Assembly (NCBI RefSeq): GCF_031179145.1
Contig: NZ_JAPSIB010000003.1
Coordinates: 124,001-188,000, forward strand
Direction: 5' to 3'
DNA length: 64,000 nt
Origin: Brevibacterium sp.
GTDB lineage: Bacteria; Actinomycetota; Actinomycetes; Actinomycetales; Brevibacteriaceae
In this document: positions 17,386-35,335 of the stretch, piece by piece
Numbering within the stretch: the first letter of the stretch is position 1
Layout of the letters: each line of letters opens with the position of its first letter
Notes under the pieces: model-generated
What the model was told of the DNA's origin: nothing
What the model saw: the letters and a program-made list of their open reading frames with translations, nothing else
Database searches by the model: none
Translations under genes and position numbers: made by a program

Positions 17386-17936
17386 TTTACTCCTTGGGGG
17401 TGTCCACCCGATGTACTCACGACTTCCCGGCTTCACGCTGCTCGGAAGACTCTACACAGCCTAGCCGAATTCCGGGTAACAGCGCAGGACAGGCCCGTTC
17501 CTCCCAGTTCCGCGTGAATCCGCCTCTGACAGCGATCGGCGGTGGGCAGATCTCGTATCCGAGAAACGCTCGTGACGTCATGTTCGAATATCCGGGACCC
17601 GCTCCAACCGCAGCTTGAGCGCTTTTCTCAGCTCCCCGAGGTTCTCCCCGGCAGTCGGTGGCGCCGACCCTCCTATGACATGAATTCACTCAGTAGAAGT
17701 ATCAGCACCTGTGGACACTGTGGACAACTCCCTCTTACGCGCCGGTAGCCAGGGCAGATGGACCTCTCCAGGGTGTGGACCACGTGTGCACCCGGAGCGG
17801 TGCCTCCGGGTCCGCCTGGGTAAGCACATGCATGTAGTTCACATCCGTCCACCCGATCGTCTTCACTTGTCCACCAGTTTATCCCCAGTGTGGTCCTGTT
17901 GTCCCCAACCTTATCCACAGCTGTGCATAGACGGTT
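17386..17936. other. oriC candidate: dnaN-dnaA intergenic region
   Basis: A 551-bp region without a gene between dnaA and dnaN, the usual site of oriC in actinobacteria. It holds DnaA boxes close to TTATCCACA: the reverse-strand TGTGGACAA at 17719-17727 and TGTGGACCA at 17774-17782, and a four-box cluster at 17867-17919 listed separately. No AT-rich unwinding element stands out clearly in the part I inspected. The gene direction flips here (leftward dnaA-dnaN-recF-gyr, rightward rpmH-parB beyond dnaA), as expected for a bidirectional origin. Confidence 0.8.
17867..17919 (+). promoter_or_regulatory. Cluster of four co-directional DnaA boxes in oriC
   Basis: TTGTCCACC (17867-17875), TTATCCCCA (17879-17887), TTGTCCCCA (17899-17907) and the perfect TTATCCACA (17911-17919) all point the same way, with start-to-start distances of 12, 20 and 12 bp. 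This is a plausible nucleus for a DnaA filament next to the dnaA stop. Confidence 0.75.
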
Positions 17937-19859: not shown

Positions 19860-19920
19860 GGAGTGTCCTGTGTGCTGGGCTTCATTCGCTTCTCTTTAAG
19901 CTCTAATGCACAGGAGTGCT

Positions 19921-19950: not shown

Positions 19951-19999
19951 GTGAGAACGCACTGTCGTTCACCGGCGACCTAGATATCGGAGACTTGAA

Positions 20000-20137: not shown

Positions 20138-20140
20138 GAC

Positions 20141-20506: not shown

Positions 20507-20831
20507 TCTGAAACACGAATCGGAGGTCCCGCGCCGTCCGCATGGATTCTGGCCCAGCCTCTGGTGGTTGATCCGGATCGGTCCGCGGTTTCCGTTCGTC
20601 TGGTTCATCCGGGCCTACCGCAAAGTGATCTCGCCCCTCTATGGGCAGGTCTGCCGGTACTACCCGAGCTGCTCGATGTACGGCCTCGAGGCCTTCGAGA
20701 TACACGGAGTTCTCAAGGGGATGGTGTTGACTGGGTGGCGGATACTGCGGTGCAACCCCTTCTCACACGGCGGGGTGGACCATGTTCCCGGTTCGGCCCG
20801 TCAGGCACGGTCGGAGACGATGCGCTTCTGA
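20490..20831 (+). CDS. yidD: Membrane protein insertion efficiency factor YidD
   Basis: A 113-residue protein with the YidD core: IRAYRKVISPLYGQVCRYYP, SCSMYGLEAFEIHGVLKG and RCNPFSHGGVD, with the three conserved cysteines. An amphipathic N-terminal helix keeps it at the inner membrane, where it assists YidC and Sec insertion. The start is GTG at 20490 inside the end of rnpA; the N-terminal 15 residues are not conserved, so a slightly later start is possible. Confidence 0.93.
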   Translation: MDAEHDLKHESEVPRRPHGFWPSLWWLIRIGPRFPFVWFIRAYRKVISPLYGQVCRYYPSCSMYGLEAFEIHGVLKGMVLTGWRILRCNPFSHGGVDHVPGSARQARSETMRF

Positions 20832-21033
20832 ACGGGAATCCTCGCAGAGACCCGGTGAGAGGCTGCTTCTCTCTGGTCGGTGATGCGGTCGCTCGTCCCC
20901 GGCGGCATGCTTCGGATCGCGCTGAATTGCGGGGTCATCGGCGAAACCGGGTGCAGCGAACCGGTGTCGCAACGGACAGACAAGAATGGCAAAATGAACG
21001 ATCGTGAAGAATCGTTGTAACGAGGAGATCTGA

Positions 21034-21993
21034 ATGGACTGGTTTGACAAGCTGCTCTACCCCCTGCAGTGGGTGGTTGCTTGGATCCTCGCGATCTTCC
21101 ACGAGATCTTCACATCGATCGGTCTGCCGGCGGACAACGGGTGGACCTGGGTGCTCTCCATCGCGGGACTGACTCTCGTCATCCGCGCCGTGCTGATCCC
21201 TCTGTTCGTCTACCAGATCAAAGCTCAGCGCAAGATGCAGCTGCTCCAGCCGGAGATCCAGCGTCTGCAGGCCAAGTACAAGGGTAAGAAGGACCAGTAC
21301 TCGCGTCAGGCGATGGCCGAAGAGCAGATGGCCCTGTTCAAGGACAACAAGACGAGTCCGTGGGCTTCCTGTCTGCCGCTGCTCGTGCAGATGCCGATCT
21401 TCTTCTCGCTCTTCCGCGTCATCCACAACATGCCGAAGGTCGCCAACGGCGACATCGGAAACATCGGAGGCTTCACCCAGAACCTGGCGATCCAGGCTGA
21501 GCAGTCCTCGGTGTTCGGGATCTCCCTGTCGGCTGTCTTCACCGATCCCGGCATCGGCGTCAAGCTGCTCACCGGTGTCCTCATCGTCATCATGGCGGCC
21601 ACCATGTTCGTCACCCAGAAGCAGATGATGGCGAAGAACATGTCGGAAGCCGCGATGGCGAACCCGATGATGCAGTCGCAGAAGATGCTTCTCTACATCA
21701 TGCCGATCGTCTTCGGCGTCGGCGGCATCTACTTCCCGCTCGGTGTTCTCTTCTACTGGCTGGTCTCCAACACCTGGACCATGGTTCAGCAGCACATCGT
21801 CATCCGCAATATGCCGGCTCCCGGTTCCAAGGCTGAGAAGGAGATGCTCGAGCGCAAGGCGCGCAAGGGCAAGGCCATCAAGCAGCCTGAGGTCAACGGA
21901 TCTGTCGCGGAGAAGGCACCAGAGGTTACGAAGCCCACTGGGCAGCGGCCGCAGCCGGTGAGCAAGAATCGTAAGAAGAACAAGAAGCGCTGA
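21034..21993 (+). CDS. yidC: Membrane protein insertase YidC/Oxa1
   Basis: A 319-residue insertase. Helices are near residues 5-25 and 45-65 (SIAGLTLVIRAVLIPLFVYQ), the cytosolic coiled hairpin follows (IKAQRKMQLLQPEIQRLQAK), then three more helices including PLLVQMPIFFSLFRVIHNMP and GGIYFPLGVLFYWLVSNTWT. The large periplasmic domain of proteobacterial YidC is absent, as usual in Gram-positives. The C-tail is strongly basic (SKNRKKNKKR), which favours ribosome contact. GAGGAG precedes the ATG. The 202-bp gap before it holds no gene I can support. Confidence 0.96.
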   Translation: MDWFDKLLYPLQWVVAWILAIFHEIFTSIGLPADNGWTWVLSIAGLTLVIRAVLIPLFVYQIKAQRKMQLLQPEIQRLQAKYKGKKDQYSRQAMAEEQMALFKDNKTSPWASCLPLLVQMPIFFSLFRVIHNMPKVANGDIGNIGGFTQNLAIQAEQSSVFGISLSAVFTDPGIGVKLLTGVLIVIMAATMFVTQKQMMAKNMSEAAMANPMMQSQKMLLYIMPIVFGVGGIYFPLGVLFYWLVSNTWTMVQQHIVIRNMPAPGSKAEKEMLERKARKGKAIKQPEVNGSVAEKAPEVTKPTGQRPQPVSKNRKKNKKR

Positions 21994-22001
21994 GGAAGAA
22001 C

Positions 22002-22523
22002 ATGACTGAAGAGATCGTGGAAGACACGGCTGCGAAGCCGACCAGGGCGGAGCTCCTCGAAGAAGAGGGCGAGATCGCAGCGGACTACCTCGAAGAGTTG
22101 ATGGACCTCGCAGACATCGATGGTGACATCGACATCGACGTCGCTGACGGTCGCGCCCAGCTCTCGATCGTGTGCGAAGACCAGGACGACTCGAACCTGC
22201 GCACTCTCGTCGGGCGCGACGGCAAGACGTTGAGCGCGCTCCAGGAGCTCTGCCGTCTGGCCGTGCAGACCAGCACCGGCCAGCGGTCGTGGCTGATGCT
22301 CGACATCGACGGCTTCCGGTCCAGTCGCCGTGATGAGCTGATCAAGAAGGCTCAGAAGGCGATCGAGGATGTGAAGGAGACCGGCGAGACCTTCGTGTTC
22401 CCGCCGATGAACAGCTTCGAGCGGAAGATCATCCACGATCAGGTCGCACACTCGGGACTGATTTCCGAATCCGAAGGTGAAGGAGACGGTCGCCACGTGA
22501 TCGTCCGTTCCGCCGATGACTGA
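22002..22523 (+). CDS. Jag/KhpB RNA-binding protein (KH + R3H)
   Basis: A 173-residue single-stranded nucleic acid binder. After an acidic N-terminus comes a KH-like domain (VGRDGKTLSALQELCRLAVQ, with the GxDG loop), then an R3H domain (VFPPMNSFERKIIHDQVAHS with the conserved R-x3-H). The N-terminal Jag domain of Firmicutes is missing, as in other actinobacteria. It follows yidC by 8 bp, and its end overlaps rsmG by 8 bp. KhpB-type proteins influence cell division and small-RNA biology elsewhere; here the role is inferred from family only. Confidence 0.92.
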   Translation: MTEEIVEDTAAKPTRAELLEEEGEIAADYLEELMDLADIDGDIDIDVADGRAQLSIVCEDQDDSNLRTLVGRDGKTLSALQELCRLAVQTSTGQRSWLMLDIDGFRSSRRDELIKKAQKAIEDVKETGETFVFPPMNSFERKIIHDQVAHSGLISESEGEGDGRHVIVRSADD

Positions 22524-23157
22524 TTTGTCCGCGCTCGAGGTTCCTCCAAACGGAACGAAAGAGTACTTCGGGGATGCGTTCGGCAGGGCCGAGCGTTACG
22601 CCGAGCACCTTGCGACGACCGGGATCGAATGGGGTCTGATCGGTCCTCGCGAAGTCGACAGGCTGTGGACGAGGCACATTCTCAACTGCGCCGTCGTCGC
22701 CGAGTTCATCCACGATGGTGACGTCGTCGGGGATGTGGGCAGCGGCGCCGGACTACCGGGCATTCCCATTGCACTGCTTCGCCCTCAGGCGCAGGTCGTG
22801 CTGATCGAGCCCATGGAACGACGCGTCGAATGGCTGAAGATGGTCGTCGACGATCTTGGCCTGGACAATGTCCGCATCGTCCGCGCCAGGGTGGAAGAGC
22901 TCATCGACGAGGAGATGTTCACCGTCGTGACCGCTCGGGCTGTCAAGGCGATGACGACGCTGATCGAATGGACCCATGAGGTCGTGGGTCCTCAGGGCCG
23001 GATACTGGCGCTCAAGGGAGCGTCGGTGGAGGCTGAGCTGGCGAAGACGAAGAAGCTGCTGAAACGGTATCGTTTTGGTCAGCCGACGATCCATGTCGTG
23101 GATGGGGGCGGAATCCTTGATGTGCCGAGCCGCGTAGTGGAAATCGTAAAGAAATAG
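22516..23157 (+). CDS. rsmG: 16S rRNA (guanine-527-N7) methyltransferase RsmG
   Basis: A 213-residue class I methyltransferase. The SAM-binding loop is VGDVGSGAGLPGIPIALLRP, the acidic residue after strand 2 is in VLIEPMERRVEWLK, and VVTARAVKAMTTLIEW carries the conserved ARAV. N7 methylation of G527 in the 530 loop affects streptomycin sensitivity. The order jag-rsmG-parA-parB is conserved near the origin. Confidence 0.96.
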   Translation: MTDLSALEVPPNGTKEYFGDAFGRAERYAEHLATTGIEWGLIGPREVDRLWTRHILNCAVVAEFIHDGDVVGDVGSGAGLPGIPIALLRPQAQVVLIEPMERRVEWLKMVVDDLGLDNVRIVRARVEELIDEEMFTVVTARAVKAMTTLIEWTHEVVGPQGRILALKGASVEAELAKTKKLLKRYRFGQPTIHVVDGGGILDVPSRVVEIVKK

Positions 23158-23223
23158 ATCAAAGCAAATCTGGTTTAGGCTGAGTAGAGCTTTGTGAACC
23201 CAATGGATGATGGAGTGCGCCGA

Positions 23224-24120
23224 ATGCCGATCATGGACGAGTCGTCTCCCATAGGTGCTGCTATTGCGCGCGACAACCGCCGTGCCGACCGCCTGTCGCA
23301 GGTGGATTTTCCGAAGCCGGATACGACTCGAGTGTTCACGATCGCCAATCAGAAGGGCGGCGTCGGCAAGACCACTACCGCGGTGAACATCGCTGCCGCA
23401 CTGGCGAAGCAGAACCTCAACGTCCTGGTCATCGACATCGACCCGCAGGGAAACGCCAGCACTGCGTTGGGCATCGACCATTATTCGGAAGTCACCAGCA
23501 TCTACGACGTCATCATCGATGACGTGCCGATGTGTGAGGCCGTGGCGCAGTGTCCAGATTTCGAGTCCCTGAAATGTGTGCCCGCGACGATCGATCTGGC
23601 GGGCGCCGAGATCGAGCTGGTGTCGTTGGTAGCGCGCGAACAGCGCCTCCACCGGTCCCTGGGCCAATACCTCGATGAAGAGGCCGCGGACGGAGCTCGA
23701 GTGGACTATGTCATCATCGACTGCCCGCCCAGCCTCGGCCTGTTGACCGTCAACGCCTTCGTCGCGGCTCGAGAGGTGCTCATCCCCATCCAGTGCGAGT
23801 ACTACGCGCTGGAGGGCCTGAGCCAGCTGCTGAAGAACATCCAGCTGATCCAGAAGCACCTCAATCCGAGTCTGTCGATCTCGACGATCCTGTTGACGAT
23901 GTACGACGGCAGGACCAACCTGAGTGCGCAGGTCGCCGACGACGTCCGCACCCATTTCCCCGAACAGGTTCTGCGAACCTCCATCCCCCGATCGGTGCGA
24001 ATCTCCGAGGCTCCCAGCTATGGGCAGACCGTGATCTCGTACGATCCTCATTCCAGTGGCGCTTTGTCTTATCGGGAAGCTGCCGAAGAAATCGCTATTC
24101 GAGGAGTAAAGCGTGGCTGA
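23224..24120 (+). CDS. parA: Chromosome-partitioning ATPase ParA (Soj)
   Basis: A deviant-Walker ParA ATPase, 298 residues from the ATG at 23224, which has GGAG 8 nt upstream; GTG at 23194 and ATG at 23203 are in frame but lack a good ribosome site. The nucleotide loop is [20 protein letters not shown] with the signature Lys, followed by [16 protein letters not shown] and [17 protein letters not shown]. ParA-ATP coats the nucleoid and pulls ParB-parS complexes apart. Its 3' end overlaps parB by 8 bp. In this window its cargo would be the dense parS region just downstream. Confidence 0.96.
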
Positions 24121-26137
24121 ACGCAGGAAGCGCGGTCTGGGACGGGGTCTGGGCGCGTTGATCCCGGATGCGGCCGCGAGTGAACGTCCGGTGGACGTGT
24201 TCTTCTCCGGTGGTGAGGCAGAAGAGCCCAAAGCCGGCGCTGAAGACGCAAAACCGGCTCGCAGTGCGCGGACTGATCCAGCAGCGTCGATGCAGTCCTC
24301 GCGACGCCGGAAGGCCAAGAACGGCTCCAGCACCAAGGTGGCAGCCGGCGAGTCGACGACGAACAAGGCAGACTCCTCCAAAGAGACTTCCAAGGCAACC
24401 ACCTCCAAGACGACGACTTCGAAGTCATCGACTGCTGAGTCAGCTGGGGGGAAGTCGCGGAGCTCCAAGGCCGCTACTGGTCAATCCACGACGTCCAAGT
24501 CCTCCGGGACCAAGTCGAAGACGGGGACCGATGGCACCGAATCCAAGAAGCGACCGGCGACTGGCTCGGCACTGAATGCCGCATCCAGCGAGACGGCGGC
24601 CGACAAGGCCACGGCCGGCGAGACTGTGGCCGAAAACGCTATGACCGCCGAGGCTGCGGCCGGCGAGACTGTGAAGACGTCCTCAGGGGCGGCAACGAGT
24701 CCCGAGGTGTCTGACAGCTCAATATCAGCCCCGGAATCGGACAGAACTGATTCGACTGACGAGGGGGGCACCGCGAGCCGGAAGGACGCTTCTGAGCCTG
24801 GTGTCGAATCACCCGTGGCCGATACAGCTGTTGAGTCTGGTGACGGCGATGGGAAGCCTGGTGAAAGCGATGAACCCGCCACGACGTCGGCTCGCGAAGC
24901 CGATTTCGACGCTGAGGTTCTCGAGACTCATCCCGGCGTATACCGTTCGGCGTCGGAGGCCCCTACTCACGCAGCTACTGAAAATCGCGGTGGTACTACG
25001 GAAGTTGTACCACCTGCTGACTCGACCGACGACGTATCGGATCTCGGGTCGGCATCGGCAGACCCTGCCGACGGAGTTGCGGCCGCTGCCGACGGAGTTG
25101 CAGACGCTGCTGTTGCTTCTTCGAGAATCGAGTCCTCCCGCGGCAGCGCTGTGGACACCGAGGTTACGGGTGATGCAACGAACCCGGTGAGTTCGGAGTC
25201 GACGGAATTGGGTTCTGACTCCTCTCTGCAGTCTTCCGAGGACAGCAGCGACGATGGCGACGACGACGATGGCCACGGCGACGATGGGGAGGACGCCGAT
25301 GGCGACGACGATGGCGTCGCATCGATCGCAGACACTGAATACGGCGAAGTCGATGTCGAACTCATCGACCCGAACCCACGTCAGCCGCGTACGGTGTTCG
25401 ACGAGGACCAGCTGGCAGAACTCGTCCACAGCATCCGCGAAATCGGGGTGCTGCAGCCTGTCGTGGTACGTCAGAAGCCCGGAGAGTCTCCACGTTATGA
25501 GCTCATCATGGGTGAGCGGCGACTTCGAGCGACGAAAGAAGCCGGCCTCGCGACGATTCCCGCTATCATCCGGCATGTCGATGACACCGACCTCCTGCGG
25601 GATGCTCTCCTGGAGAACCTGCATCGAGCTGAACTGAATCCTTTGGAGGAGGCAGCGGCGTATGGTCAGCTGCTGGAAGACTTCGGATGTACACAGGAAG
25701 AACTGTCCGAGCGGATCGGACGTTCGCGCCCTCAGATCTCGAACACTCTGCGTCTCCTGCGTCTCCCACCTCTCGTGCAACGGCGAGTGGCTGCGGGAGT
25801 CATCTCCGCTGGTCACGCCCGCGCTATCCTCGGGCTCAAGAACCCGGAGCACATGGAAGTTCTTGCTCAGCGCATCGTGGCTGAGGGAATGTCTGTCAGG
25901 GCGTCCGAAGAGGCAGTGGTGCTTCTCAACCGTGGCGACGCCGTTAACGTTTCACGTGGAACGTCCCGGGTGGCGCCCGAGTTCATTGAAGTTGCAGAAC
26001 GCTTGGGCGACAGGCTGGAGACGAAGGTCAACATCACAGTGGGTAAGCGCAAGGGAAAGCTGAGCGTGGAATTCGCTAATCAGGAAGATTTGGACAGGAT
26101 CCTGTCCATCCTGGGAATCGATCACTCCGAACGCTGA
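24113..26137 (+). CDS. parB: Chromosome-partitioning protein ParB with a very long disordered linker
   Basis: A 674-residue ParB, about twice the usual 300-350. Residues 1-22 ([20 protein letters not shown]) are the ParA-stimulating N-terminus. From about residue 410 the normal core follows: [20 protein letters not shown], the CTP-binding [14 protein letters not shown] and [20 protein letters not shown], the helix-turn-helix [20 protein letters not shown], and a C-terminal dimer domain. In between lie about 385 low-complexity residues, Ser/Thr/Lys-rich first ([17 protein letters not shown]), then Ala/Glu, then strongly Asp-rich ([20 protein letters not shown]). The reading frame is intact, so it is an expansion and not a frameshift. 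GAGGAG precedes the GTG. A parS-like site lies inside the 3' part. Confidence 0.95.
25949..25962 (+). other. parS-like site inside parB
   Basis: GTTTCACGTGGAAC, one mismatch from the palindrome GTTTCACGTGAAAC and identical to the common actinobacterial parS variant. It lies in codons of the C-terminal part of parB. Confidence 0.88.
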
Positions 26138-26165
26138 CTCACGTCGTAGCGCTGCAGCTGCGGAT

Positions 26166-26198
26166 AGCCCCTTATCCTTGGCGGATGAGGGGCTTTTT
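26166..26198 (+). terminator. Intrinsic terminator after parB
   Basis: AGCCCCTTATCC (26166-26177) pairs with GGATGAGGGGCT (26183-26194) with one wobble and a 5-nt loop, followed by a T-run. It lies 28 bp past the parB stop and ends the rpmH-parB direction. Confidence 0.88.
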
Positions 26199-26335
26199 GC
26201 ACGCGTCTGGAACTCGCTTCCGCTTCGACGGCGAGAGTGCACGGATACATTTTCGAGCGCCTAAAAGGTCGACGTTGCTGCCTGCGGACCTGGCGCGCGT
26301 AGTTGTCGTTCCGGATTCTTGTATCTCCCGCTCCC

Positions 26336-26349
26336 GTTCCACGTGAAAC
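26336..26349 (+). other. parS-like site (1 mismatch)
   Basis: GTTCCACGTGAAAC, one mismatch from the perfect palindrome. Confidence 0.85.
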
Positions 26350-26749
26350 ATCGTGATCCGCTTCTCACTCCACCTAGTTCGACGAGGATGGTGATCGGAG
26401 GTGCGTTCCTATTCCTTCACCTGGCCACCTCGGCATTTTCTCGAAGGCCCCGGCCGTCATTTCCTCTGTCGCGCGTCTGCAAAACCGCATGCGGTATTTT
26501 CGGACGTGCGTCATCTCTGGCCTGACCGGTACGAATCTTCCTGCTGGTATCCGATTCCCACGACGTTCGATCACCGAACGGCGGCGTTAATCCGGATCCT
26601 TTAGACTCCATTCCACGGCCAGGCGTAGCATTGCAAATACGGGGTCCTAGTGCGCTTGCCCGTTTGTCTTCTGGATACCGAAGGAAGCGCGCGCACCGCT
26701 TCATTTGCAAGGGCCACCGAATGGAGGTTCACCAGACTCCAGACGCGCC

Positions 26750-26763
26750 GTTTCACGTGGAAC
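26750..26763 (+). other. parS-like site (1 mismatch)
   Basis: GTTTCACGTGGAAC, the intact copy within the 53-bp duplication. Confidence 0.88.
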
Positions 26764-26802
26764 ATGGACGTGCTTGGAGGTTCACCAGGCCCCCGGCGCG
26801 GC

Positions 26803-26816
26803 GTTCCAGGTGGAAC
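26803..26816 (+). other. Decayed parS-like site (3 mismatches)
   Basis: GTTCCAGGTGGAAC. It is the second copy of the 53-bp duplication; the C of the central CACG has become G, which probably abolishes ParB loading. Confidence 0.55.
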
Positions 26817-27034
26817 ATGGGGTTTCGCCATCTCGGCAAGGATTTTAGCTATTACCGGTGATTGTAGAGACCGGACGCTACGAGCCGCTTGAGTCGCGTT
26901 TTCGTTCTCAGCGATGCGGGTCCACTGGGCACTCCAAAAAGGAGAGAACGTCAGGCTCAATTGCGTCGCTTGAACGCTGATTCCCAAGCCTCCCTTCGCG
27001 TACCCCAATCGGCTCGTGGTCTTAGTTGCTACCG

Positions 27035-27048
27035 ATTTCACGTGTTAC
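27035..27048 (+). other. Degenerate parS-like site (3 mismatches)
   Basis: ATTTCACGTGTTAC. The left half-site and core are kept; the right half-site is altered. Confidence 0.4.
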
Positions 27049-27149
27049 ATGGACCACCCCCGATGCTCGGCTTAGTGGGCCAAATATGGCAACCCCTTCC
27101 GGTAGAGCGAGTTCGCTGCTTTTCCGCCCCGCCCGCCCCGTACTGGGCT

Positions 27150-27163
27150 GTTTCACGTGAAAC
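27150..27163 (+). other. Perfect parS site
   Basis: GTTTCACGTGAAAC with T and A flanks, which gives the full 16-bp consensus TGTTTCACGTGAAACA known from Bacillus. It is the best site in the window. Confidence 0.95.
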
Positions 27164-27459
27164 AAATGGGGGTTGCAGTCATGGCGACGCGGGCTCCGTT
27201 GGAGCTGGACGAAACGCCGTTGAACTAGCTGCTACGCTCTCCGTGGGCGCATCTGCGTCTGAGGAGTCCAGTTGGGTTTTTGTGGGGTCGGATGCGAACC
27301 CGGACTCGTTGCAGTCCCGGATGGTTCCTGTGGTGGCACTTGAATAGTATTTGGTCAACAGCGTGTAGATAATGCTGTGGACCTTACTGCTCGTGTTTCG
27401 CTATGTATTCTCTTGAATTTGAGCCGGTTAGACGTGGGCTAGTTCAACTAGCGCCCGGT

Positions 27460-27473
27460 GTTTCACGTGAAAC
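27460..27473 (+). other. Perfect parS site
   Basis: GTTTCACGTGAAAC, flanked by T on the left and G on the right. Confidence 0.95.
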
Positions 27474-27482
27474 GGCCGCCGT

Positions 27483-27496
27483 GTTTCACGCGAAGT
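27483..27496 (+). other. Degenerate parS-like site (3 mismatches)
   Basis: GTTTCACGCGAAGT, starting 23 bp after the perfect site at 27460. It shares the CACGCG core with the tandem array that follows. Confidence 0.5.
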
Positions 27497-27555
27497 TGTG
27501 GGGCCGAGGGCCAAATTGGCGCTCTGCTCTTGTTTCAACCAGGATACGCCGTCTC

Positions 27556-27641
27556 GGTTCACGCGAAACACTCGTTTCACGGGAAACCCCCGTTTCAAGC
27601 GAAAGACTCGCTTCACGCGCAACGCTCGCTTCACTCGAAAA
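27556..27641 (+). repeat. Five parS-like units in tandem at exactly 18-bp period
   Basis: Units start at 27556, 27574, 27592, 27610 and 27628: GGTTCACGCGAAAC, GTTTCACGGGAAAC, GTTTCAAGCGAAAG, GCTTCACGCGCAAC and GCTTCACTCGAAAA, with 2, 1, 3, 3 and 4 mismatches to the consensus. Spacers are 4 nt (ACTC, CCCC, ACTC, GCTC). All five have lost the T of CACGTG (C in four, G in one), which suggests one founder unit amplified after that change. Confidence 0.9.
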
Positions 27642-27863
27642 CTTGGGTCACGTTTATCGACAACGCCAACCGGCGCGTCTTCTACGGCACCCTGCCGGCG
27701 GGGAGACTAACTGGTAGGCCTGGGTTATCGTCAGCCAAATGATTCTACCGGGCGGCGACGGCTGTCTCCTGGCAGCTTTACTGAGTGCAACCGCCGCCCG
27801 GTGATCATTTCGTCCGTCCTGCGGGTTTGTCGCTTTGGGCATATTCTGAGCGCCGGCTAGGAA

Positions 27864-27877
27864 GTTTCACGTGGAAC
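27864..27877 (+). other. parS-like site (1 mismatch)
   Basis: GTTTCACGTGGAAC, the actinobacterial variant. Confidence 0.88.
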
Positions 27878-28397
27878 ATCCGATGGTATTGAGAAGCAGC
27901 TGCTACTGGATCTGGGTGGCCTATTCTCTCAACTGCGACCACGGCCCTGTTTAGGACGTCTGTTTCCCTGACTGATGGTGTCAATCGCCGGCGAGAGCGG
28001 ATACCGCCCGTCCCTAGCAAAGTTCGTGATTTGGTCAGCGAAGTTGGAATCTTGGCTCCTCCGTCCGCCGCGGTACCTCGTTACGCCTCGCTCGAGTTAT
28101 CAAAACGGACTTGACCCTTCCAGCTGATTGATTTCGTTTAAACACAGAGCTGTCATCGCCGACTCAAGGGTTCTGGCAACGGCATGCATCGACTTCTACA
28201 ACGATGGGTCGGCTGCTGGTCCTCTGGGGATGGGGATTTCCGGAACTAATACTATACCGCCACCCTCGCTTTCAACTTTCCAGTAGGTCTCTGCCACCTG
28301 TGAGCCGAGGCGTTACGTCTTCCTGTCAGCCATTCACCCTCTCGGACTTCTCGAACAATTCGTATAAACACCGATACCCCGGGTTCTCCCCGGCGGC

Positions 28398-28411
28398 GTT
28401 TCACGTGAAAC
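28398..28411 (+). other. Perfect parS site
   Basis: GTTTCACGTGAAAC. It begins a series of five sites with start-to-start distances of 242, 251, 267 and 271 bp. Confidence 0.95.
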
Positions 28412-28639
28412 ACTCACATCAGGGACAGGAAAGGAGGATTGAGTGGTTCGCGTTTGTTGCTGTAGGTTTATGAGACCGCAGTAGCTACATGTTGGTGTAT
28501 TTGACGGTTACGCGTAGGCTGACCGTCTTCCCTAATCGGGCCGGTGGTATCGAGCTCATTAGGACCTGTTATTGGTCTACTGCTGTGGGCAGTCGCGGAT
28601 CGGGCGAACTGGCTGCCGGAATTCCCATTACGGGGTGGC

Positions 28640-28653
28640 GCTTCACGTGAAAC
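28640..28653 (+). other. parS-like site (1 mismatch)
   Basis: GCTTCACGTGAAAC. The core and right half-site are perfect. Confidence 0.85.
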
Positions 28654-28890
28654 ACTGCTTTCAGAGGTGGACCTCTTCGCTGGTGGAGGCTTGCAGATAT
28701 ACCTGTCTCCGTGGGTTATAGGCATGTACTCCGGTACGGAGCTTGGGGAGGGGCGGCTGTTTGTGTTTCCGCGGCTGGCATGCGGCCCTGCGGTGCTCCT
28801 CCTGAGGTTGCAAGTCGTGAGCAGTGTTGGAGTACCACTTGGTCCTGTCGGTCCTGGGTAGCTGATCAAGTCAGTTTCGGCGTAGGTCGT

Positions 28891-28904
28891 GTTCCACGTG
28901 AAAC
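28891..28904 (+). other. parS-like site (1 mismatch)
   Basis: GTTCCACGTGAAAC, the same variant as at 26336. Confidence 0.85.
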
Positions 28905-29157
28905 GGGAAGACTCCTTCTCGTGGACGCGCCGCCAGACGGGTTCATACTGTGAGCGGCGGATAGCCGTTCCTCCTTGCCTACATCTCTCAGTTACCGGAC
29001 GCTTCCTTCGGAGTGTTAGTTGTCCTTAGGTATTCAGCTTGCGTCCTTACGTGAGCTCGGACCTCGTGCCAATTGGGTCGCTTTCGCTACTCGCTTGTAA
29101 TGCAGGATCCGGATCCGGCATTATCCAATCTGTGGAGCCTATGGCTGCTCAGCTTTT

Positions 29158-29171
29158 GTTTCACGTGAAAC
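29158..29171 (+). other. Perfect parS site
   Basis: GTTTCACGTGAAAC, preceded by T. Confidence 0.95.
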
Positions 29172-29428
29172 GGCTCCTGTCTCCTCTTCTGCGCCCGTCA
29201 ACGCGCGTAGCCGGTCACTCCGCGCAAGTGAGTCACGTAACCGTTGGTGCGTACGTGGGGTACTAGTTTCAGGACGTGGTGGTCATGCGCAGCGGAAGCT
29301 GATGAGGGCATCATGGTATGCGCCGTAGCTTAGCAGGATCTATAAGCGCGTGAGGCAACCCGCTGTTGGTGTGGATCGCGTGCCTCATGTCACGGTCGTA
29401 AGGCTAGTAGAGTTCCCCACTCGTCAGT

Positions 29429-29442
29429 GCTTCACGTGGAAC
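29429..29442 (+). other. parS-like site (2 mismatches)
   Basis: GCTTCACGTGGAAC. The CACGTG core is intact with one change in each half-site. Confidence 0.7.
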
Positions 29443-29981
29443 GTGGCAGCTCCGACGGCGCTGAAAAAAGGCAAATAGCGGCCTATACAACAACCCACTT
29501 CCGTAGCAGCGCGGCAGTAGGCCCTGTACTACTTCTCACAATTCTGAACTGGCTACAACGTGAACATCGGCTCTCTTAGTCGTTGTGGGTCTATTTCACA
29601 GCACCGGGCTCGCTGGCATCCGCTAATTGGTATTGCTGGGTGCCTGCCGCACGGCGCAGAGGAGAAACACGCATATCGGCGTGTACGGTTCTGGGGACCG
29701 CCAAGGGTTTGACGTGGCGCAGCTATACCTGCCGATCGGCGTGATCGACGTCGCAGCGATTCGCCCGTCTCGATTGTCAACGGGTGAGCGAAACCAGATG
29801 GAATGCCCCTGCGAGAGGGAGCAAGTTGCCTCTGACAAACCTTTGGGCGTTCTGCGACGAAGTATTATCGGAGCCCCAAGGTTGCGAGACTAACTGGTGT
29901 CGAGTTGGGAGTGCGTTCGTCGCGCATTCTGCGTTGCTACGGGATGGAACAGTGGGCTTCAGTGTGGCTCGTACTTAGTGC

Positions 29982-29995
29982 GTTTCACGTGAAAC
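29982..29995 (+). other. Perfect parS site
   Basis: GTTTCACGTGAAAC. It is paired with the next site 37 bp away. Confidence 0.95.
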
Positions 29996-30012
29996 GGTCG
30001 ATGCAGGACGAC

Positions 30013-30038
30013 CGTCCTGTTTCACGTGGAACAGGACG
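30013..30038 (+). other. parS site inside an extended 26-bp palindrome
   Basis: GTTTCACGTGGAAC (30019-30032) is flanked by CGTCCT on the left and AGGACG on the right, extending the inverted symmetry to 26 bp with a single mismatched pair. A further CAGGACG lies just upstream (30004-30010) and could pair with the left flank instead. Confidence 0.88.
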
Positions 30039-30168
30039 CGAACTAGTCACTAGCCCGCGCGGCCATCTGTGCCGCTGAGCGCTGGGCGCGAGTATTCAAC
30101 TGTGCCCGGCTCGAGGCCTGACTACAATGCGGTGGGTCCAGGCCGAACGGAGCCGGCGCACTCCACGC

Positions 30169-31278
30169 TCAGTTGTAGGCCTTGATCGCTTCAATGCTGA
30201 GCGTGCCGGTCTCCGGATCGGCATCTTCTTTGACGTGGAGCCGCTGCAGTGCCGCGGCGATTCCTACTGCCATCGCATCTCTGACCTGGGCGTCCTCAAG
30301 GTTCTGGAGATCATCCGGGTTAGTCAGGTAGCCCGCCACGACATGCACTTTTGGAGTCCTGAGTCGCTTCAATGAAGCCCAGGATCGTGCGTGTGTGCGG
30401 CAGTCTCGCATACCCGTCCGCACAGTGATCTCGCTCTGGATGAGCGAGGCCAGGCGCGCACCGATCGGTGAGTTCACGTTGGGGTGTTTCTCGTGCCCGA
30501 AGTAGAAGGAAGATACTCCATTGGCCTGCGGAGAGCGATTGACGTCGGCAGAAATCGTGATGACTGCCGAAGCACCGAGCTGATCAGCCTTGCTGACTTC
30601 AACAGATTTGCCGGAGACGACGATCGCTCCGGCACCGACGGCCTCCAAGCGGCCTGCCAATCGGCGGGCGATATCCTTGGTGATCTCCTCCTCCTTGGCC
30701 GACTGAGCCGGAGTCATCGGAAGAGCCACGAAATCTACAACTGTAGTTGCAGCTTCGATGACAAAGGTGCGTCCGACGAGCGATGTGCCTGAAGCAGCGA
30801 CTCGGGCGGCTTCTTCGAGTGCGAACAGGTTGCCGGTGTCCTGCTGCCTGTCAATGGCTGAGAGCCCGCGCAGCGTCTGTGGCCCTGCCACCCCGTCCGC
30901 CTTCGCGCCCAAACTCTTCTGAAGCTCTTTGACGGCCGCTTCGGTCACATTGCGATATTCGGCATCGATGAGTCCCGCGTAGAAGCCGAGAGCGGCGAGA
31001 CGCTGCTGAAGCTTCAGCACATCGTCGCCGGCGTACGGCTTGACGGGGTCGTAGCGGAGCACACGGTCTCCGAGCTGGTACCGGGCCCGTTCGAGTTCAG
31101 CGAATGTCTCTGAACCGAGCACGCCGTCACAGAGTATTCCCCGCATCTGCTGGAACTCCCGCAGGGCGAGCTCGAATTCTCTATCGAACGCTCCTGTTCC
31201 GGATTGGCCGACATTCAGACCCATGCGGGCCATCTGAGACTTGACGGTCGTCAGGACTTCAGAGGAATCGCCACGCAT
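30169..31278 (-). CDS. CwlM-like protein: two peptidoglycan-binding domains and a catalytically dead amidase_3 domain
   Basis: 369 residues from ATG 31278 (RGDSSEVLTTVKSQMARMGL); an in-frame TTG at 31305 is less likely. Two PG_binding_1 repeats come first (LALREFQQMRGILCDGVLG and AAVKELQKSLGAKADGVAGP). The rest aligns by order with N-acetylmuramoyl-L-alanine amidase (Amidase_3), but key zinc and catalytic residues are gone: DPGHGG is replaced by IEAATT, the SIHAN-type strand reads TISADVN, and the terminal VExGFLxNP reads VAGYLTNPDD. The gene sits beside trxA/trxB and parAB like mycobacterial CwlM, which regulates peptidoglycan precursor synthesis through MurA when phosphorylated. A regulatory rather than hydrolytic role is likely. 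No signal peptide is seen, so it should be cytoplasmic. Confidence 0.85.
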   Translation of the reverse strand: MRGDSSEVLTTVKSQMARMGLNVGQSGTGAFDREFELALREFQQMRGILCDGVLGSETFAELERARYQLGDRVLRYDPVKPYAGDDVLKLQQRLAALGFYAGLIDAEYRNVTEAAVKELQKSLGAKADGVAGPQTLRGLSAIDRQQDTGNLFALEEAARVAASGTSLVGRTFVIEAATTVVDFVALPMTPAQSAKEEEITKDIARRLAGRLEAVGAGAIVVSGKSVEVSKADQLGASAVITISADVNRSPQANGVSSFYFGHEKHPNVNSPIGARLASLIQSEITVRTGMRDCRTHARSWASLKRLRTPKVHVVAGYLTNPDDLQNLEDAQVRDAMAVGIAAALQRLHVKEDADPETGTLSIEAIKAYN

Positions 31279-31351
31279 CAGGTGAGGGTGAGGTCGGTGT
31301 GTCAATTGCTTGCCAATCTGCTGTTCTGATCAGGAGGTCCGAGAACGCGGA

Positions 31352-31381
31352 AGGCGCCTGTTGAAGGTACAACAGGCGCCT
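31352..31381 (-). terminator. Perfect 12-bp hairpin between trxA and the cwlM-like gene
   Basis: AGGCGCCTGTTG (31352-31363) and CAACAGGCGCCT (31370-31381) pair perfectly around a 6-nt loop, 10 bp past the trxA stop. No U-run follows on the reverse strand, so it may end trxB-trxA transcripts only partly, or stabilise their 3' end. Confidence 0.65.
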
Positions 31382-31391
31382 GAGCGTTGGA

Positions 31392-31709
31392 TCAGATGAA
31401 TTCGGAGAGTTCATCCTCGAGGGCGGGCTTCGGCCGAGCCCCGATGATGGTCTTGGCGACCTCACCGTTCTTGAAGACATAGAGCGCGGGAATCGAGGTG
31501 ATCCCGTAGGCGCTGGCGGTCTCCAGGTTCTCATCGGTGTTGACCTTGACGACTGTGAGCTTCTCAGCGTTCTCTTCAGCGATCTGGTCGACGATGGGGC
31601 TGACCATACGGCACGGTCCGCACCATGGGGCCCAGAAGTCGACCAGAACTGGCTTGTCGGACTTGAGCACGGTCTCTTCGAATGTGGCGTCGGTGACTTC
31701 GGTCGTCAT
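31392..31709 (-). CDS. trxA: Thioredoxin
   Basis: A 105-residue classical thioredoxin with the redox site FWAPWCGPCRMVSPIVDQIA and the cis-proline loop YGITSIPALYVFKNGE. It keeps cytosolic proteins reduced. The partner reductase gene trxB lies 66 bp upstream in the same direction, so the pair forms an NADPH-TrxB-TrxA system. Confidence 0.97.
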   Translation of the reverse strand: MTTEVTDATFEETVLKSDKPVLVDFWAPWCGPCRMVSPIVDQIAEENAEKLTVVKVNTDENLETASAYGITSIPALYVFKNGEVAKTIIGARPKPALEDELSEFI

Positions 31710-31775
31710 GGCCTACCTTTCTTCAATCAATGTTCCCCCAAGGGAACAGCTGCGGAAGGGGTTTCATTCCCTCGC

Positions 31776-32771
31776 TCAGGAGCCTACAGGCGCCGTGACT
31801 GCCGCGTCGGTGACGTCGGCAGCTTGAGACTGCTTGGCTGCCGACTCCAGGTCGGCGAGGTAGTGCTCTGCGTCCAATGCTGCGGCACAGCCGGAGCCGG
31901 CGGCAGTGATGGCCTGACGGTACACCGAATCGATGACGTCACCCGCAGCGAAGACACCTTCGATTGAGGTCTTCGAGCTGCGGCCTTCGACCTTGAGGTA
32001 TCCGTCGTCTCGCATGGGCAGCTGGTCAGCGAACAGGCTGGTGCGGGGATCGGAACCGATTGCCACGAACAGCCCGGTGACCGGAAGCTCGGAAGTCTCT
32101 CCGGTGACGGTGTTGCGAACCGTGATTCCGGTCAGTGACTCCTCACCATGGATCTCAGCCACCTCGCTGTCGAGGAGGAACTCAAGCTTCTCGTCGGCGC
32201 GGGCACGGTCCTGCATCGCCTGTGAAGCGCGCAGTTCCTGACGGCGGTGGATCAGTGTCACCTTGGAGGCGAAACGGGTGAGGAACGTGGCCTCCTCGAG
32301 TGCGGAGTCGCCGCCGCCGATCACAGCGATGTGCTGGTTGCGGAAGAAGAAGCCGTCGCAGGTGGCGCACCAGCTCACTCCGTGGCCGGAGAGCTTCTTC
32401 TCGTTGGGAAGGTTGAGCTCACGGTAGGCCGACCCTGTCGCGAGGATGACTGCCTTGGCCGTGTAGCGAGCCCCGAGCGCCGTTTCGATCTCGTGGGCAC
32501 CGGGATTGAGCTTGAGGGTCTCGACATCGTCGTAGACCACCTCGGCGCCGAACCTCTCGGCCTGGGCGCGCATGTTCTCCATGAGCTCAGGACCCTGCAC
32601 GCCTTCCGGGAACCCCGGGAAGTTCTCGACGTCGGTCGTGTTCATGAGCTCACCACCGGCAGTCACCGATCCGGCGATGATCACCGGTGAGAGATTGGCA
32701 CGGGCCGCGTAGACGGCGGCCGTGTAACCGGCCGGACCCGACCCGATGATCACCAATTGAGTTTCAGTCAT
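31776..32771 (-). CDS. trxB: Thioredoxin reductase (NADPH)
   Basis: A 331-residue flavoprotein: FAD-binding IIGSGPAGYTAAVYAARANL, the redox-active CxxC in WCATCDGFFFRNQ, NADPH-binding VIGGGDSALEEATFLTRFAS, and the C-terminal FAD contact GVFAAGDVIDSVYRQAITAA. The enzyme passes electrons from NADPH to thioredoxin TrxA encoded next. An extension of about 20 residues at the C-terminus is rich in Ala/Ser and not conserved. Confidence 0.97.
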   Translation of the reverse strand: MTETQLVIIGSGPAGYTAAVYAARANLSPVIIAGSVTAGGELMNTTDVENFPGFPEGVQGPELMENMRAQAERFGAEVVYDDVETLKLNPGAHEIETALGARYTAKAVILATGSAYRELNLPNEKKLSGHGVSWCATCDGFFFRNQHIAVIGGGDSALEEATFLTRFASKVTLIHRRQELRASQAMQDRARADEKLEFLLDSEVAEIHGEESLTGITVRNTVTGETSELPVTGLFVAIGSDPRTSLFADQLPMRDDGYLKVEGRSSKTSIEGVFAAGDVIDSVYRQAITAAGSGCAAALDAEHYLADLESAAKQSQAADVTDAAVTAPVGS

Positions 32772-32899
32772 GTGCAGATGTCCTGTTCAGCTTCGTTCTC
32801 GATGCGCCGCCGGCGGAGCGGACGCGGATTGTCTGTCGTATATCTAACCGCCGTGCGGGTGGGGCTATTCCTCACGCGCACAGCGGTGAACTTGTCCGA

Positions 32900-35335
32900 C
32901 TACTTGAATTCGACGGTGCTGATCGAGGCGCGGTAGCCACCCTCACCTTTTGGCAGCTTGGTGATCCAGAGGATCAGATTCTCCGTCTCCACACCATCGT
33001 CGAGCTCGACGGTGACTCCGTCCTTGTCGAATTCTCCCTCGCCCACCTTCTTGGCGTCCTCAGGGTCCGAGCCGTCGCGGATCTCGAAGGCACCGCCTGA
33101 CGAGGACGACTTCACCTCGACCTCCTTGACCGTGGTCTTGTCCTTGAGCTCAAAATGCAGGCCGAGCCCCGATTTCAGGTTTCCGAAATCGGCGCTGTTG
33201 TAACGGTCGGTGCGCCACGATCCCTTTTCACCCGGGACGACTTTGTCGGCATTGCCGTCATTCTCACTGTTGTCCCCCTCGGGATCAAGGGCGGAGACCT
33301 TGTCGATCTCCGGAGGCGCCGCCTGGGGTTCCTCGGCGGGCTGTTCGGTTTCCTGGTCCGCTGGCTGCGCCGGCGACGGGGAATCCGCGACTGTGCCCGA
33401 ATCGTCGCCCGAGTTCTGGTTGAACACGACGATCCCGATCACGAGCGCGGCGACGAGGATGACTGCCAGGAGGATCCACAGGAACGGCTTCTTCCGCCGC
33501 TCAGATGCGTCCGAGTCGGGTCCGGGTCCGCGCGTTCCGGTTCCTGCTGCACCGGGAGCTGCCCCGGTTCCTCCTGGGCCGGCACCAGCCGGAGTTGCAC
33601 CTGTCGCGGCTGCTCCGACCCCGACCGCCGTTGCGCCGACGCCTGCCGCACCGACCGCAGCGGCCACTCGGGGCCGAGTGTCGCCACTCTGCTGCTCGGC
33701 AGCTCCTTGTGTCGAGACAGGCTGCGTCGACGCTCCTTGCGTCGAGGCTTGTGAGCCGGCCGCCGTTCGGTTCGTCACCGGGGCCTGTGGGGACATGGGT
33801 GCGGTGGACACGTCGTCGATGTCGCCGGGAGAGAGCCTGCGGACCTGTTTCGGTGGGGTGTGAGCGGTCTCCGCTCGCTTGCCCGCCGAGGCTGCTTCGA
33901 GGGCGGCGATGCGACGTCGAGCTTCCTCCTCCTTGGCCCGGGCGATGCGTCGTTCGCGCTCGTACTCACGCAGCTGGTGCTCACGCTGCTGCTCGTAGGT
34001 TTCGAACATGCCTCCGAGGAACCACGAACCGTCGTCCTCGTCATCCATGATCACCCGCGTGTCATTGTCGTCGTCCTCGGCGACGATGTCGAGCGCCTGG
34101 GTGTCCGGATCATTGGGATCCTGGGCGTCACGGTTCATGATCGGGGTCGTCATGTTGTCGTCATACTCGCGGTCGGCATAGCCGGAGTAGTCGGAATACG
34201 TCTGCTCCGGCTCCCATTCGTCCCATTCCTGGGCGGCGTTGTCGATCTGCGAGGCGCCGACGGGGAAACTCGAGGCCTCACGCATCTGCATCCGGTCCGC
34301 GTAGCGTCCGGTGGTCCTGCCCACCACTCCTGCGGCCAGACCGCGGGTGCCGGGGCGGGTGATGCCGATCCGCACCAGCGCCGCTTTGACCTGGTCCTCG
34401 CTGGCTGTGGCCTGCGAGCCGACCTCACCGATGGATTTCGACCTCGGGGTGGGAAGCCGAGTCGCCTCGTCGAAGCTTCGCGGAGCCTGGTTGAACAGGT
34501 TCTCGTTCTCGCGCACAGGCGCGGTGCTGACGTAGCGCAGGATCTGGGGGTCCCACTCGGCGAGGTATCCCAGGACCTCGGCCACCGAGCCCGGGCCCGG
34601 ATCGACGCCGGTGAGGATCCCGGTGACGAAGTCGTCGACCGTTGTGGGCAGCGCCGGGTTGAGGGAACTCGCGCGGGCGATCCGCGAGTTCTCCCGGCCC
34701 GAGGGCGGAATCCCGCTGACCGCCTCGTCGCCGGGCCAATAGCCGGTCAGAGCCGCATAGAAGAGCCGGACCAGGTCAAGGGCGTCCTGCCGGGAGGCCT
34801 TCGTCGGAGTCCAGTCCTCGGCCTGGATCACTCCGGTGCCCAGCGCCAGGGCGGTGTCGATGCCAATGCCGGAGACGAGGACACTGCCCTTGGAGGTGAT
34901 GCCGACGGTGCTCGGGCGCAGGAACATATGGAACAGTCCGCGACGGGCAGCCGCGACGAGGACAGTGCCGATCTCACCGATCAGGGCTCGGGCGGCATCG
35001 AGGGACATCGGTGTGCGCGGGATGATCTCCCCGAGCGGTGCGGCCGCGATGCGTTCGACGACGACGTAGTCGAGGCCGTTGGCCTGTCCGACGTCGAGCG
35101 TCGGGGCGATGCGGTGATCGCCGAGGATCGACACCCGCCTGGCCGCATCGAGCATGTCTCCGGACTTCTCGGCATCGGCGACGTGGATGAGAACGGGCTC
35201 GTCGAGAATGGCGTCGAGCGCGGTGCAGACAGCACCTGCCTCCGGGGCTTCCTCAATCCATGGACGGTCGATCGTCGATACAACATAACGACCGGCCACG
35301 ACCATGCCGGGTTCGATATGGATCAGGGTGATCAC
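32900..35335 (-). CDS. MviN-type pseudokinase with a membrane helix and extracellular beta-sandwich domain
   Basis: 811 residues. The N-terminal 280 or so follow a Ser/Thr kinase fold (GRYVVSTIDRPW to about SVAEVLGYLAEW), but the catalytic loop HxDxKxxN is HMFLRPSTVGIT and DFG is VSGIG, so it is a pseudokinase. A Pro/Ala/Thr-rich and charged linker of about 350 residues follows, including an EYERERRIARAKEEEARRRI coiled coil, then a membrane helix (FLWILLAVILVAALVIGIVV) and an extracellular F5/8-like domain ending VEFK. In mycobacteria this module is fused to MurJ; here it is a separate gene 21 bp downstream of murJ. The start is uncertain: the apparent GTG at 35335 lies within a perfect ribosome-binding sequence GGAGGTGATCACC, so translation may begin a few codons later. 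Confidence 0.85.
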   Translation of the reverse strand: MITLIHIEPGMVVAGRYVVSTIDRPWIEEAPEAGAVCTALDAILDEPVLIHVADAEKSGDMLDAARRVSILGDHRIAPTLDVGQANGLDYVVVERIAAAPLGEIIPRTPMSLDAARALIGEIGTVLVAAARRGLFHMFLRPSTVGITSKGSVLVSGIGIDTALALGTGVIQAEDWTPTKASRQDALDLVRLFYAALTGYWPGDEAVSGIPPSGRENSRIARASSLNPALPTTVDDFVTGILTGVDPGPGSVAEVLGYLAEWDPQILRYVSTAPVRENENLFNQAPRSFDEATRLPTPRSKSIGEVGSQATASEDQVKAALVRIGITRPGTRGLAAGVVGRTTGRYADRMQMREASSFPVGASQIDNAAQEWDEWEPEQTYSDYSGYADREYDDNMTTPIMNRDAQDPNDPDTQALDIVAEDDDNDTRVIMDDEDDGSWFLGGMFETYEQQREHQLREYERERRIARAKEEEARRRIAALEAASAGKRAETAHTPPKQVRRLSPGDIDDVSTAPMSPQAPVTNRTAAGSQASTQGASTQPVSTQGAAEQQSGDTRPRVAAAVGAAGVGATAVGVGAAATGATPAGAGPGGTGAAPGAAGTGTRGPGPDSDASERRKKPFLWILLAVILVAALVIGIVVFNQNSGDDSGTVADSPSPAQPADQETEQPAEEPQAAPPEIDKVSALDPEGDNSENDGNADKVVPGEKGSWRTDRYNSADFGNLKSGLGLHFELKDKTTVKEVEVKSSSSGGAFEIRDGSDPEDAKKVGEGEFDKDGVTVELDDGVETENLILWITKLPKGEGGYRASISTVEFK

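Follow-up and report, generated by a model that had tools for sequence, protein, structure and literature searches.

A compact parS cluster beside parB in Brevibacterium and the fast divergence of the DNA around it

How can a short strip of a bacterial chromosome keep its parS sites almost unchanged while the DNA between them approaches random similarity in related species? This question is raised by a 64,000-nucleotide stretch of a Brevibacterium genome (the window), in which parB is followed by a 4031-bp gap rich in parS sites, here called the pad. In ParABS systems, ParB binds parS, is loaded there onto DNA as clamps and recruits ParA and SMC; at the present locus this binding is presumed. 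Compact parS clusters are already known, and the unexpected part is the divergence. Fast divergence centred on parS is the most unusual property of the pad, and one that lay beyond the view of an earlier model reading of the single sequence (the sequence-only reading). The comparisons described below point to a ParB-loading centromere, in which kept parS sites, a drifting spacer and a local mutation hotspot probably occur at the same place.

parS sites and spacer DNA of the pad

The genome was scanned with the parS consensus 14-mer GTTTCACGTGAAAC. Exactly 12 matches with at most one mismatch, five of them perfect, lie between 26336 and 30032, in full agreement with the positions listed by the sequence-only reading (Table 1). 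The two-mismatch site at 29429 and a second one in a tandem array (27556), both also named there, were recovered; a one-mismatch site inside the 3' end of parB (25949) had been overlooked. When up to two mismatches were allowed, 15 sites were found in the whole genome (3.83 Mb), all of them within the 4.1 kb from 25949 to 30032: 14 in the pad and one just inside parB. The reversed pattern gave a single match in the whole genome, and the rest of the 64-kb window contained no further site with up to two mismatches. An equal parS density nearby, the outcome that the sequence-only reading had set against its own proposal, was thus not observed. As regards the sequence itself, the proposed compact loading pad is supported by the confinement of these sites, by the single HTH_ParB match in the genome, at the gene adjoining the pad, and by a gap of 1.7-4.1 kb in 44 of 57 Brevibacterium genomes. 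Strictly periodic spacing of the sites was rejected. Spacing is even rather than periodic, being more even than random in 33 of 43 pads (p < 0.05; related genomes are not independent), with p = 0.039 for the pad of this genome and p > 0.3 for three pads.

In 50 of the 57 Brevibacterium genomes, all parS sites with at most one mismatch are found at the parAB locus. Four others (G001, G013, G025 and G032) have one site each away from it, and for G012 two sites are either elsewhere or missing because of a contig end. G051 (87% complete) has a single parS site and no parB match. G023, assigned to this genus too, has its 16 sites distributed over 13 contigs and a parB (L200) without a pad, and is a natural contrast to the compact arrangement. 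Eight genomes have a gap of only 54-840 bp; their four to six sites are mainly within parA or parB or close to these genes. Most other Brevibacterium loci also have a site located -173 to -209 from the parB stop. In a midpoint-rooted tree of five proteins, a large clade of pad genomes stayed together and the no-pad genomes formed three groups in the other clade, amid padded genomes; pads have therefore been lost or gained more than once. ParB has 375-464 amino acids in the eight no-pad genomes and mostly 500-690 where a pad is present (G033 was not parsed), with one exception of 383 amino acids (G008). A coupling between pad and ParB linker (Spearman 0.47 over 50 genomes, phylogeny ignored, G008 again the exception) was not adopted and is kept as a lead only.

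Pads were aligned in 12 Brevibacterium pairs, which were not disjoint. In ten of these, the parS letters were 93-98% identical and the spacers only 45-73% (55-73% in nine, 45% in G44-G19), and the parS sites were in register, from seven of nine to all. The random level, obtained from shuffled sequence, was 41-42% identity. All ten sites were kept both in G16-G17 (parS 95%, spacer 73%) and in G14-G36 (parS 97%, spacer 55%). The spacers of the remaining two pairs, G0-G7 and G35-G43, were at the random level, and only five of 14 and four of 14 parS sites lined up. Along the pad, the spacer has diverged to a fairly uniform degree, and its length is similar within close pairs. The C-terminal part of the ParB protein is 93-100% identical in the aligned pairs, and the codon alignment is consequently not in doubt. 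Perfect parS sites number 308 (51 loci, related genomes counted separately); in one-mismatch sites the changes cluster at half-site position 4 (T to C 80, T to G 35) and position 7 (C to T 21). As judged from these alignments, the pattern is best explained by selection on the parS sites while the spacer drifts.

Plus-strand blastn of the pad against 43 other Brevibacterium strips gave no match at E <= 1e-5. A constraint on spacer length was considered and not accepted: the number of indels per substitution was 0.026-0.061 in five pad pairs vs 0.080-0.085 in control intergenic DNA, a comparison of different pairs that is only suggestive. Origin of the pad by tandem duplication was rejected, as internal blastn repeats were found in only two of 44 pads (G035 and G043). 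Tandem units containing parS or parS-like sequence were seen in the present pad (18 bp) and, at offsets of about 106 and 72 bp, in G035 and G043 (L173, L181). Such units suggest that new parS copies may arise through short tandem duplication.

Substitution excess around parS

Substitutions were counted at fourfold-degenerate third bases in protein-guided alignments of 18 disjoint Brevibacterium pairs, for which 51 of the 57 genomes were available and 36 were used, one genome per species. G012, G013, G034 and G038 (contig ends), G023 (no parB in the stretch) and G051 (no parB match) were left out of the pairing, which was greedy on pairwise distances, so that the pairs are disjoint and not all true sisters. 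Mismatch within 1 kb of parS exceeded mismatch beyond 4 kb in all 18 pairs (ratio 1.05-4.04). By distance to the nearest parS, it was 0.36-0.40 up to 1 kb in the pad pairs, 0.26 at 1-1.5 kb, 0.18 at 1.5-2 kb and 0.13-0.20 beyond. On the right side, in an amidase gene that we take to be cwlM, mismatch started at 0.41 beside the pad, fell to 0.18 at 1.2-1.5 kb and was 0.14-0.26 farther away; on the left side it was 0.32-0.41 in the last 0.9 kb of parB and 0.19 at 1.8 kb, the linker in between being excluded. Saturation-corrected medians relative to distant genes, over the 15 pad pairs, were 2.81 for the C-terminal part of parB and 2.36 for cwlM, with 0.95 for parA, 1.07 for rsmG and 0.83 for trxA. 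Relative rates were above 1 for parB in 16 of the 18 pairs and for cwlM in 17. When the lineage of the window was compared with a distant relative (G007), mismatch was 0.68 in parB, 0.61 in cwlM, 0.54 in trxB and 0.52 in jag, and lower in parA (0.45), trxA (0.40) and yidC (0.35).

Three pairs lack the pad and have parS inside parAB. Their parA values (3.0, 2.1 and 1.6 times the reference) were the top three of the 18 pairs, the highest pad pair reaching 1.61, and rsmG stood at 3.4, 2.7 and 1.3 times the reference, with one pad pair (G29-G49, 2.2) falling in between. All six mismatch types were raised in the 13 pairs with a reference mismatch of at most 0.25 (2.1-4.7 fold, raw), including C-G mismatches (2.1-2.6 fold). 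The odds ratio stratified by pair and codon family was 3.0 over all 18 pairs.

A 117-kb neighbourhood was examined in two colinear pairs, one from Brevibacterium and one from Arthrobacter. Pad identity in the two pairs was 0.46 and 0.44, vs a median of 0.876 and 0.886 for 11 and 12 other intergenic segments (minima 0.726 and 0.559), which were of similar length in both genomes and shorter than the pad, most being below 600 bp. Pad divergence exceeds that of synonymous sites and of other intergenic DNA, comparators that are not certainly neutral. Among 55 conserved genes of the Brevibacterium pair, cwlM ranked second in divergence, trxB third and trxA sixth; parB had the same value as cwlM (0.50) but fell below the identity cut owing to its linker. 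In the Arthrobacter pair, trxA ranked third, parB fifth and trxB seventh. Other fast genes occur in both stretches, in Arthrobacter mainly as one block of poorly conserved genes.

Related arrangements were found in other genera. Automatic open reading frames (ORFs) judged to be in the wrong frame, from very low mismatch or overlap with known genes, were dropped from the relative-rate summary or replaced by named genes. Loci of the Arthrobacter group, in which the ParA of one genome (G431) is 100% identical to that of Pseudarthrobacter sulfonivorans, carry 1.8-6.6 kb of DNA rich in parS that separates parB from trxA, with four to nine sites per locus. In the two closest pairs the spacers were 69% and 82% identical and all parS sites were kept (9/9 and 8/8). 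In four further pairs the spacers were random or close to it (0.42-0.45) and 7/8, 6/10, 5/9 and 2/8 sites lined up; one of these four has a synonymous mismatch of only 0.25. Relative rates were raised for parB in all 12 pairs (median 1.79) and for trxA in eight of ten (1.76).

Cellulomonas has its parS sites on both sides of rsmG, in the gaps to jag and to parA, and the prior expectation was that rsmG and parA would be hot and trxA not. Ten of 59 genomes had a match and gave six pairs, not all disjoint; the ParA of one genome (G343) is 100% identical to that of C. hominis. The highest value belonged to rsmG in four of the six pairs; of the other two, one had rsmG and parA sharing the top value and one had rsmG slightly behind parB. 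Both trxA and trxB were low, save in the most diverged pair. In ten Streptomyces pairs, mismatch was 0.41 in parB and in the next gene, 0.36 in rsmG, 0.29 in parA, 0.28 in trxB, 0.25 in yidC and 0.24 in jag. As far as these alignments reach, the substitution excess was shown to track the position of parS and not a gene in Brevibacterium and Cellulomonas, and more weakly in Arthrobacter.

Several side observations were made on these loci. In one Cellulomonas clade (L327, L328 and L329), the sites of the jag-rsmG-parA region are mostly changed, and above all a doubly changed palindrome, GTTCCACGTGGAAC, stands as the apparent parS. The parA open frames of the Cellulomonas group have 347-853 codons vs 296 in the ParA query; the proteins may carry long N-terminal extensions, or the upstream DNA may merely be without stops. 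In Nesterenkonia (L080), six of the ten parS sites found lie downstream of parA and ahead of the estimated parB start, another position for a dense cluster.

A number of results weigh against a mutational excess tied to parS. Of the 18 Brevibacterium pairs, parB was not above the reference in G2-G47 and G5-G45, nor cwlM in G2-G47, and G29-G49 was raised away from parS (rsmG 2.2, parA 1.6, trxA 2.4). The no-pad control consists of three pairs only. The coding flanks of Arthrobacter were raised only about 1.8-fold, and rsmG (1.28, 11 of 12 pairs), parA (1.15, 11 of 12) and murJ (1.32, six of eight) were also slightly raised there. In Cellulomonas, parA was only slightly raised, jag, which adjoins parS on the other side, was raised relative to yidC in only one of four pairs, and parB was raised in several pairs though at least 1.5 kb from any parS. 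Streptomyces showed only a mild rise at parB. Fourfold GC content is lower near parS (parB 0.62, cwlM 0.67, other genes 0.71-0.86), and a nearest-neighbour test of the Brevibacterium pairs failed in at least one comparison in 11 of the 18 pairs, in some clearly.

The last two results bear on two other explanations. The dips in fourfold GC in parB and cwlM fit either more mutation or weaker codon and GC selection, and the latter could explain part of the excess. The main rival is an ordinary compact parS cluster, with an unconstrained pad and with flanking codon sites that seem fast through weak codon and GC selection. Unconstrained DNA is expected to be faster than constrained DNA, and codon bias lowers the baseline elsewhere. 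This explanation is nevertheless rather unlikely, since other intergenic DNA in the 117 kb has a median identity of 0.88-0.89 and the pad is near the random level; parA, which shares an operon with parB, is fast in the three no-pad pairs but not in the pad genomes; C-G mismatches are raised as well; and the rise in Cellulomonas sits at rsmG.

Frequent import from divergent relatives at a recombination hotspot would also raise divergence between close species. Recombination does contribute, because the nearest-neighbour test fails in 11 of the 18 pairs. The nearest neighbour changes well below saturation for parB, cwlM or parA with rsmG in some pairs, for example in G14-G26, G29-G49 and G9-G39, and for cwlM in G27-G36; about five of the 11 fail only narrowly, near saturation. 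Recombination as the general explanation is a distinctly weak candidate, however: in seven of the 18 pairs (G16-G17, G35-G43, G19-G44, G3-G24, G18-G42, G4-G56 and G28-G50) the partner remains the nearest neighbour both ways for parB and cwlM, even though these genes are about 1.6-3 times as diverged as distant genes, and the spacer, with parS in register, has diverged by fairly similar amounts from one end of the pad to the other. Selection for diversity of the spacer, for example separating the centromeres of different replicons or lineages, would fit spacers that change fast yet stay similar in length within close pairs, and recalls the centromere-drive ideas developed for eukaryotes. It appears most improbable, as parS and the DNA-binding part of ParB are almost unchanged and the excess extends to synonymous sites in two flanking genes that are unrelated to each other.

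We think that a mutation excess linked to ParB and SMC is most likely, with relaxed selection as the main rival and an added share of recombination in some pairs. From what is known of ParABS systems, the 4-kb gap would be the only ParB-loading centromere of the chromosome. ParB would bind the parS sites, be loaded in clamp form onto the pad and the DNA just outside it, and recruit ParA and SMC there. Selection would keep the parS sites, the gap between the converging genes would stay gene-free and the intervening DNA would drift. The pad would in addition be a local mutation hotspot, where codon sites within about 1 kb of parS are substituted 2-3 times faster and the pad itself as fast or faster. 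We infer both the mutational nature of the excess and its cause, the ParB/SMC complex, which might act, for example, through hindered repair or disturbed replication, as proposed for yeast centromeric chromatin. For the broader proposition that bacterial centromeres are intrinsically hypermutable, with DNA loaded by ParB clamps and SMC changing 2-3 times faster or more over a footprint reaching about 1 kb past the outermost parS, the chances appear evenly balanced.

Layout of the locus

The source genome is a Brevibacterium assembly of 3.83 Mb in 44 contigs (99.76% complete). Its ParA is 90% identical to homologues in B. sediminis and B. epidermidis, the closest named loci. Genes were taken from ORF calls, with Pfam matches for parA, parB and the amidase. 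The gene order in the window is dnaA, rnpA, yidC, jag, rsmG, parA, parB, the 4031-bp gap, amidase, trxA and trxB, where dnaA, rnpA, yidC, jag, rsmG, trxA and trxB are names that we presume from the gene sequences. The amidase gene, trxA and trxB are on the strand opposite to parB, so that parB and the cwlM-like gene converge on the gap.

Table 1. Features of the parAB locus and the parS pad (window coordinates)
Feature	Position	Strand	Basis or remark
Probable oriC side	17700..17936		DnaA-box matches TTGTCCACA 17719-, TTATCCACA 17911+, near matches; consensus scan; beside dnaA
parA	23194..24120	+	Pfam AAA_31, CbiA, ParA
parB, 674 aa	24113..26137	+	ParB_N 412-504, HTH_ParB 507-602, ParB_C 622-667
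Fast-diverging zone, approximate (pad + ~1 kb each side)	25100..31300		Inferred from genus-wide profile
parS, 1 mismatch, inside parB 3' end	25949..25962		14-mer scan
parS pad, 4031 bp, without recognised genes	26138..30168		Between convergent parB and cwlM-like gene
Terminator-like hairpin + T-run	26166..26194	+	Just after parB stop; z -4.4; absent from consensus scan
parS, 1 mismatch	26336..26349		14-mer scan
parS, 1 mismatch	26750..26763		14-mer scan
parS, perfect	27150..27163		14-mer scan
parS, perfect	27460..27473		14-mer scan
18-bp tandem array, degenerate parS-like units, 4.9 copies	27553..27640		Holds 2-mismatch 27556, 1-mismatch 27574
parS, 1 mismatch	27864..27877		14-mer scan
parS, perfect	28398..28411		14-mer scan
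parS, 1 mismatch	28640..28653		14-mer scan
parS, 1 mismatch	28891..28904		14-mer scan
parS, perfect	29158..29171		14-mer scan
parS-like, 2 mismatches	29429..29442		14-mer scan
parS, perfect	29982..29995		14-mer scan
parS, 1 mismatch	30019..30032		14-mer scan
CwlM-like N-acetylmuramoyl-L-alanine amidase, peptidoglycan-binding domains	30169..31305	-	Pfam Amidase_3, PG_binding_1; right pad border

The locus has the features of a chromosomal ParABS system: a ParA-type ATPase gene beside parB, a ParB with N-terminal, HTH and C-terminal dimerisation domains, and consensus parS sites near the origin. The origin is probably located about 8-12 kb from the pad, judged by DnaA-box matches to a motif that we take to be the consensus. 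The parB product begins with an N-terminal motif, followed by a low-complexity linker of about 380 residues (window 24203-25345) and then ParB_N. Solved structures related to this ParB are those of Spo0J and ParB relatives (PDB).

The strip 26138-30168 looks non-coding. A coding function was rejected, since none of the seven pad ORFs had a Pfam match above the curated cut-off (there were two weak sub-threshold matches, GemA and RodZ_C) and no Rfam family reached the gathering score in 18000-34000. No sigma-70-like promoter was found in 23000-32000, where 2.2 were expected from shuffles; together with the hairpin after parB, this suggests that transcription of the pad may be low. On the plus strand of the pad, T exceeds A throughout 26250-29250 (AT skew -0.09 to -0.32); neighbouring windows range from +0.36 to -0.36, so this skew may mean little.

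Comparison with known systems

In eukaryotes, it is still debated why centromeres evolve fast despite their conserved task, and meiotic drive is a frequent answer. If the present interpretation is true, fast centromere evolution also arose in bacteria, and a fast bacterial centromere without meiosis would favour a general cause, in which tight packing of the segregation machinery makes the DNA at that place more mutable. Synonymous divergence would then be a fossil map of ParB occupancy, and mapping from sequence alone would extend to uncultured species. Genes beside parS would be unsuitable as molecular clocks. The cause is directly testable in engineerable bacteria.

In a literature search of titles and the openings of abstracts, with most subscription journals outside its range, no report of a mutation or substitution hotspot at parS was found, nor any paper combining parS sites with Brevibacterium. 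According to a Bacillus subtilis SMC paper, parS sites are clustered within 5-40 kb in most bacteria, and avoidance of SMC collisions is discussed there as a reason for the clustering (PMC8357415). By analogy, it is plausible that the compact pad avoids such collisions. The contrast that the sequence-only reading had drawn with widely spread actinobacterial parS sites was too strong, given the stretches of 1.8-6.6 kb in the Arthrobacter group and the ten parS sites within 35 kb reported for Corynebacterium glutamicum (PMC7083940). The same study describes ParB binding around a single C. glutamicum parS as strongest within 2 kb and reaching 16 kb on either side (PMC7083940). Both organisms share an identical parS motif and many redundant origin-proximal sites. 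In contrast, the Brevibacterium sites all lie within about 4 kb, nearly all in a gene-free gap by parB and a few hundred bp apart. The footprint of about 1 kb observed here is nearer to the 2-kb range of strongest binding than to 16 kb.

The parB-trxA stretch of the Arthrobacter group is likewise rich in parS and has a fast spacer in close pairs, but its sites are sparser, the stretch is mostly longer, its border has no cwlM match and the effect on flanking codons is weaker. Myxococcus xanthus is reported to have 24 parS sites upstream of parAB (PMC3778016). It thus also has many parS sites beside parAB, although on the other side of these genes and in another phylum.

The closest parallel to the divergence is found in yeast. 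According to the study by Bensasson (2011, PMC3155921), the centromeres of yeast evolve at about three times the rate of unconstrained DNA, with a general rise in mutation that is perhaps due to poor repair in special chromatin. A study of Escherichia coli nucleoid proteins indicates that protein binding can shield DNA or hinder its repair (PMC3527292). Yeast point centromeres, as described in the 2011 study, and the Brevibacterium pad share fast centromere DNA and a mismatch spectrum that is general and not specific. They differ in that the yeast case concerns a CENH3 nucleosome and includes polymorphism data, whereas the bacterial case concerns ParB and SMC and is built on divergence data alone.

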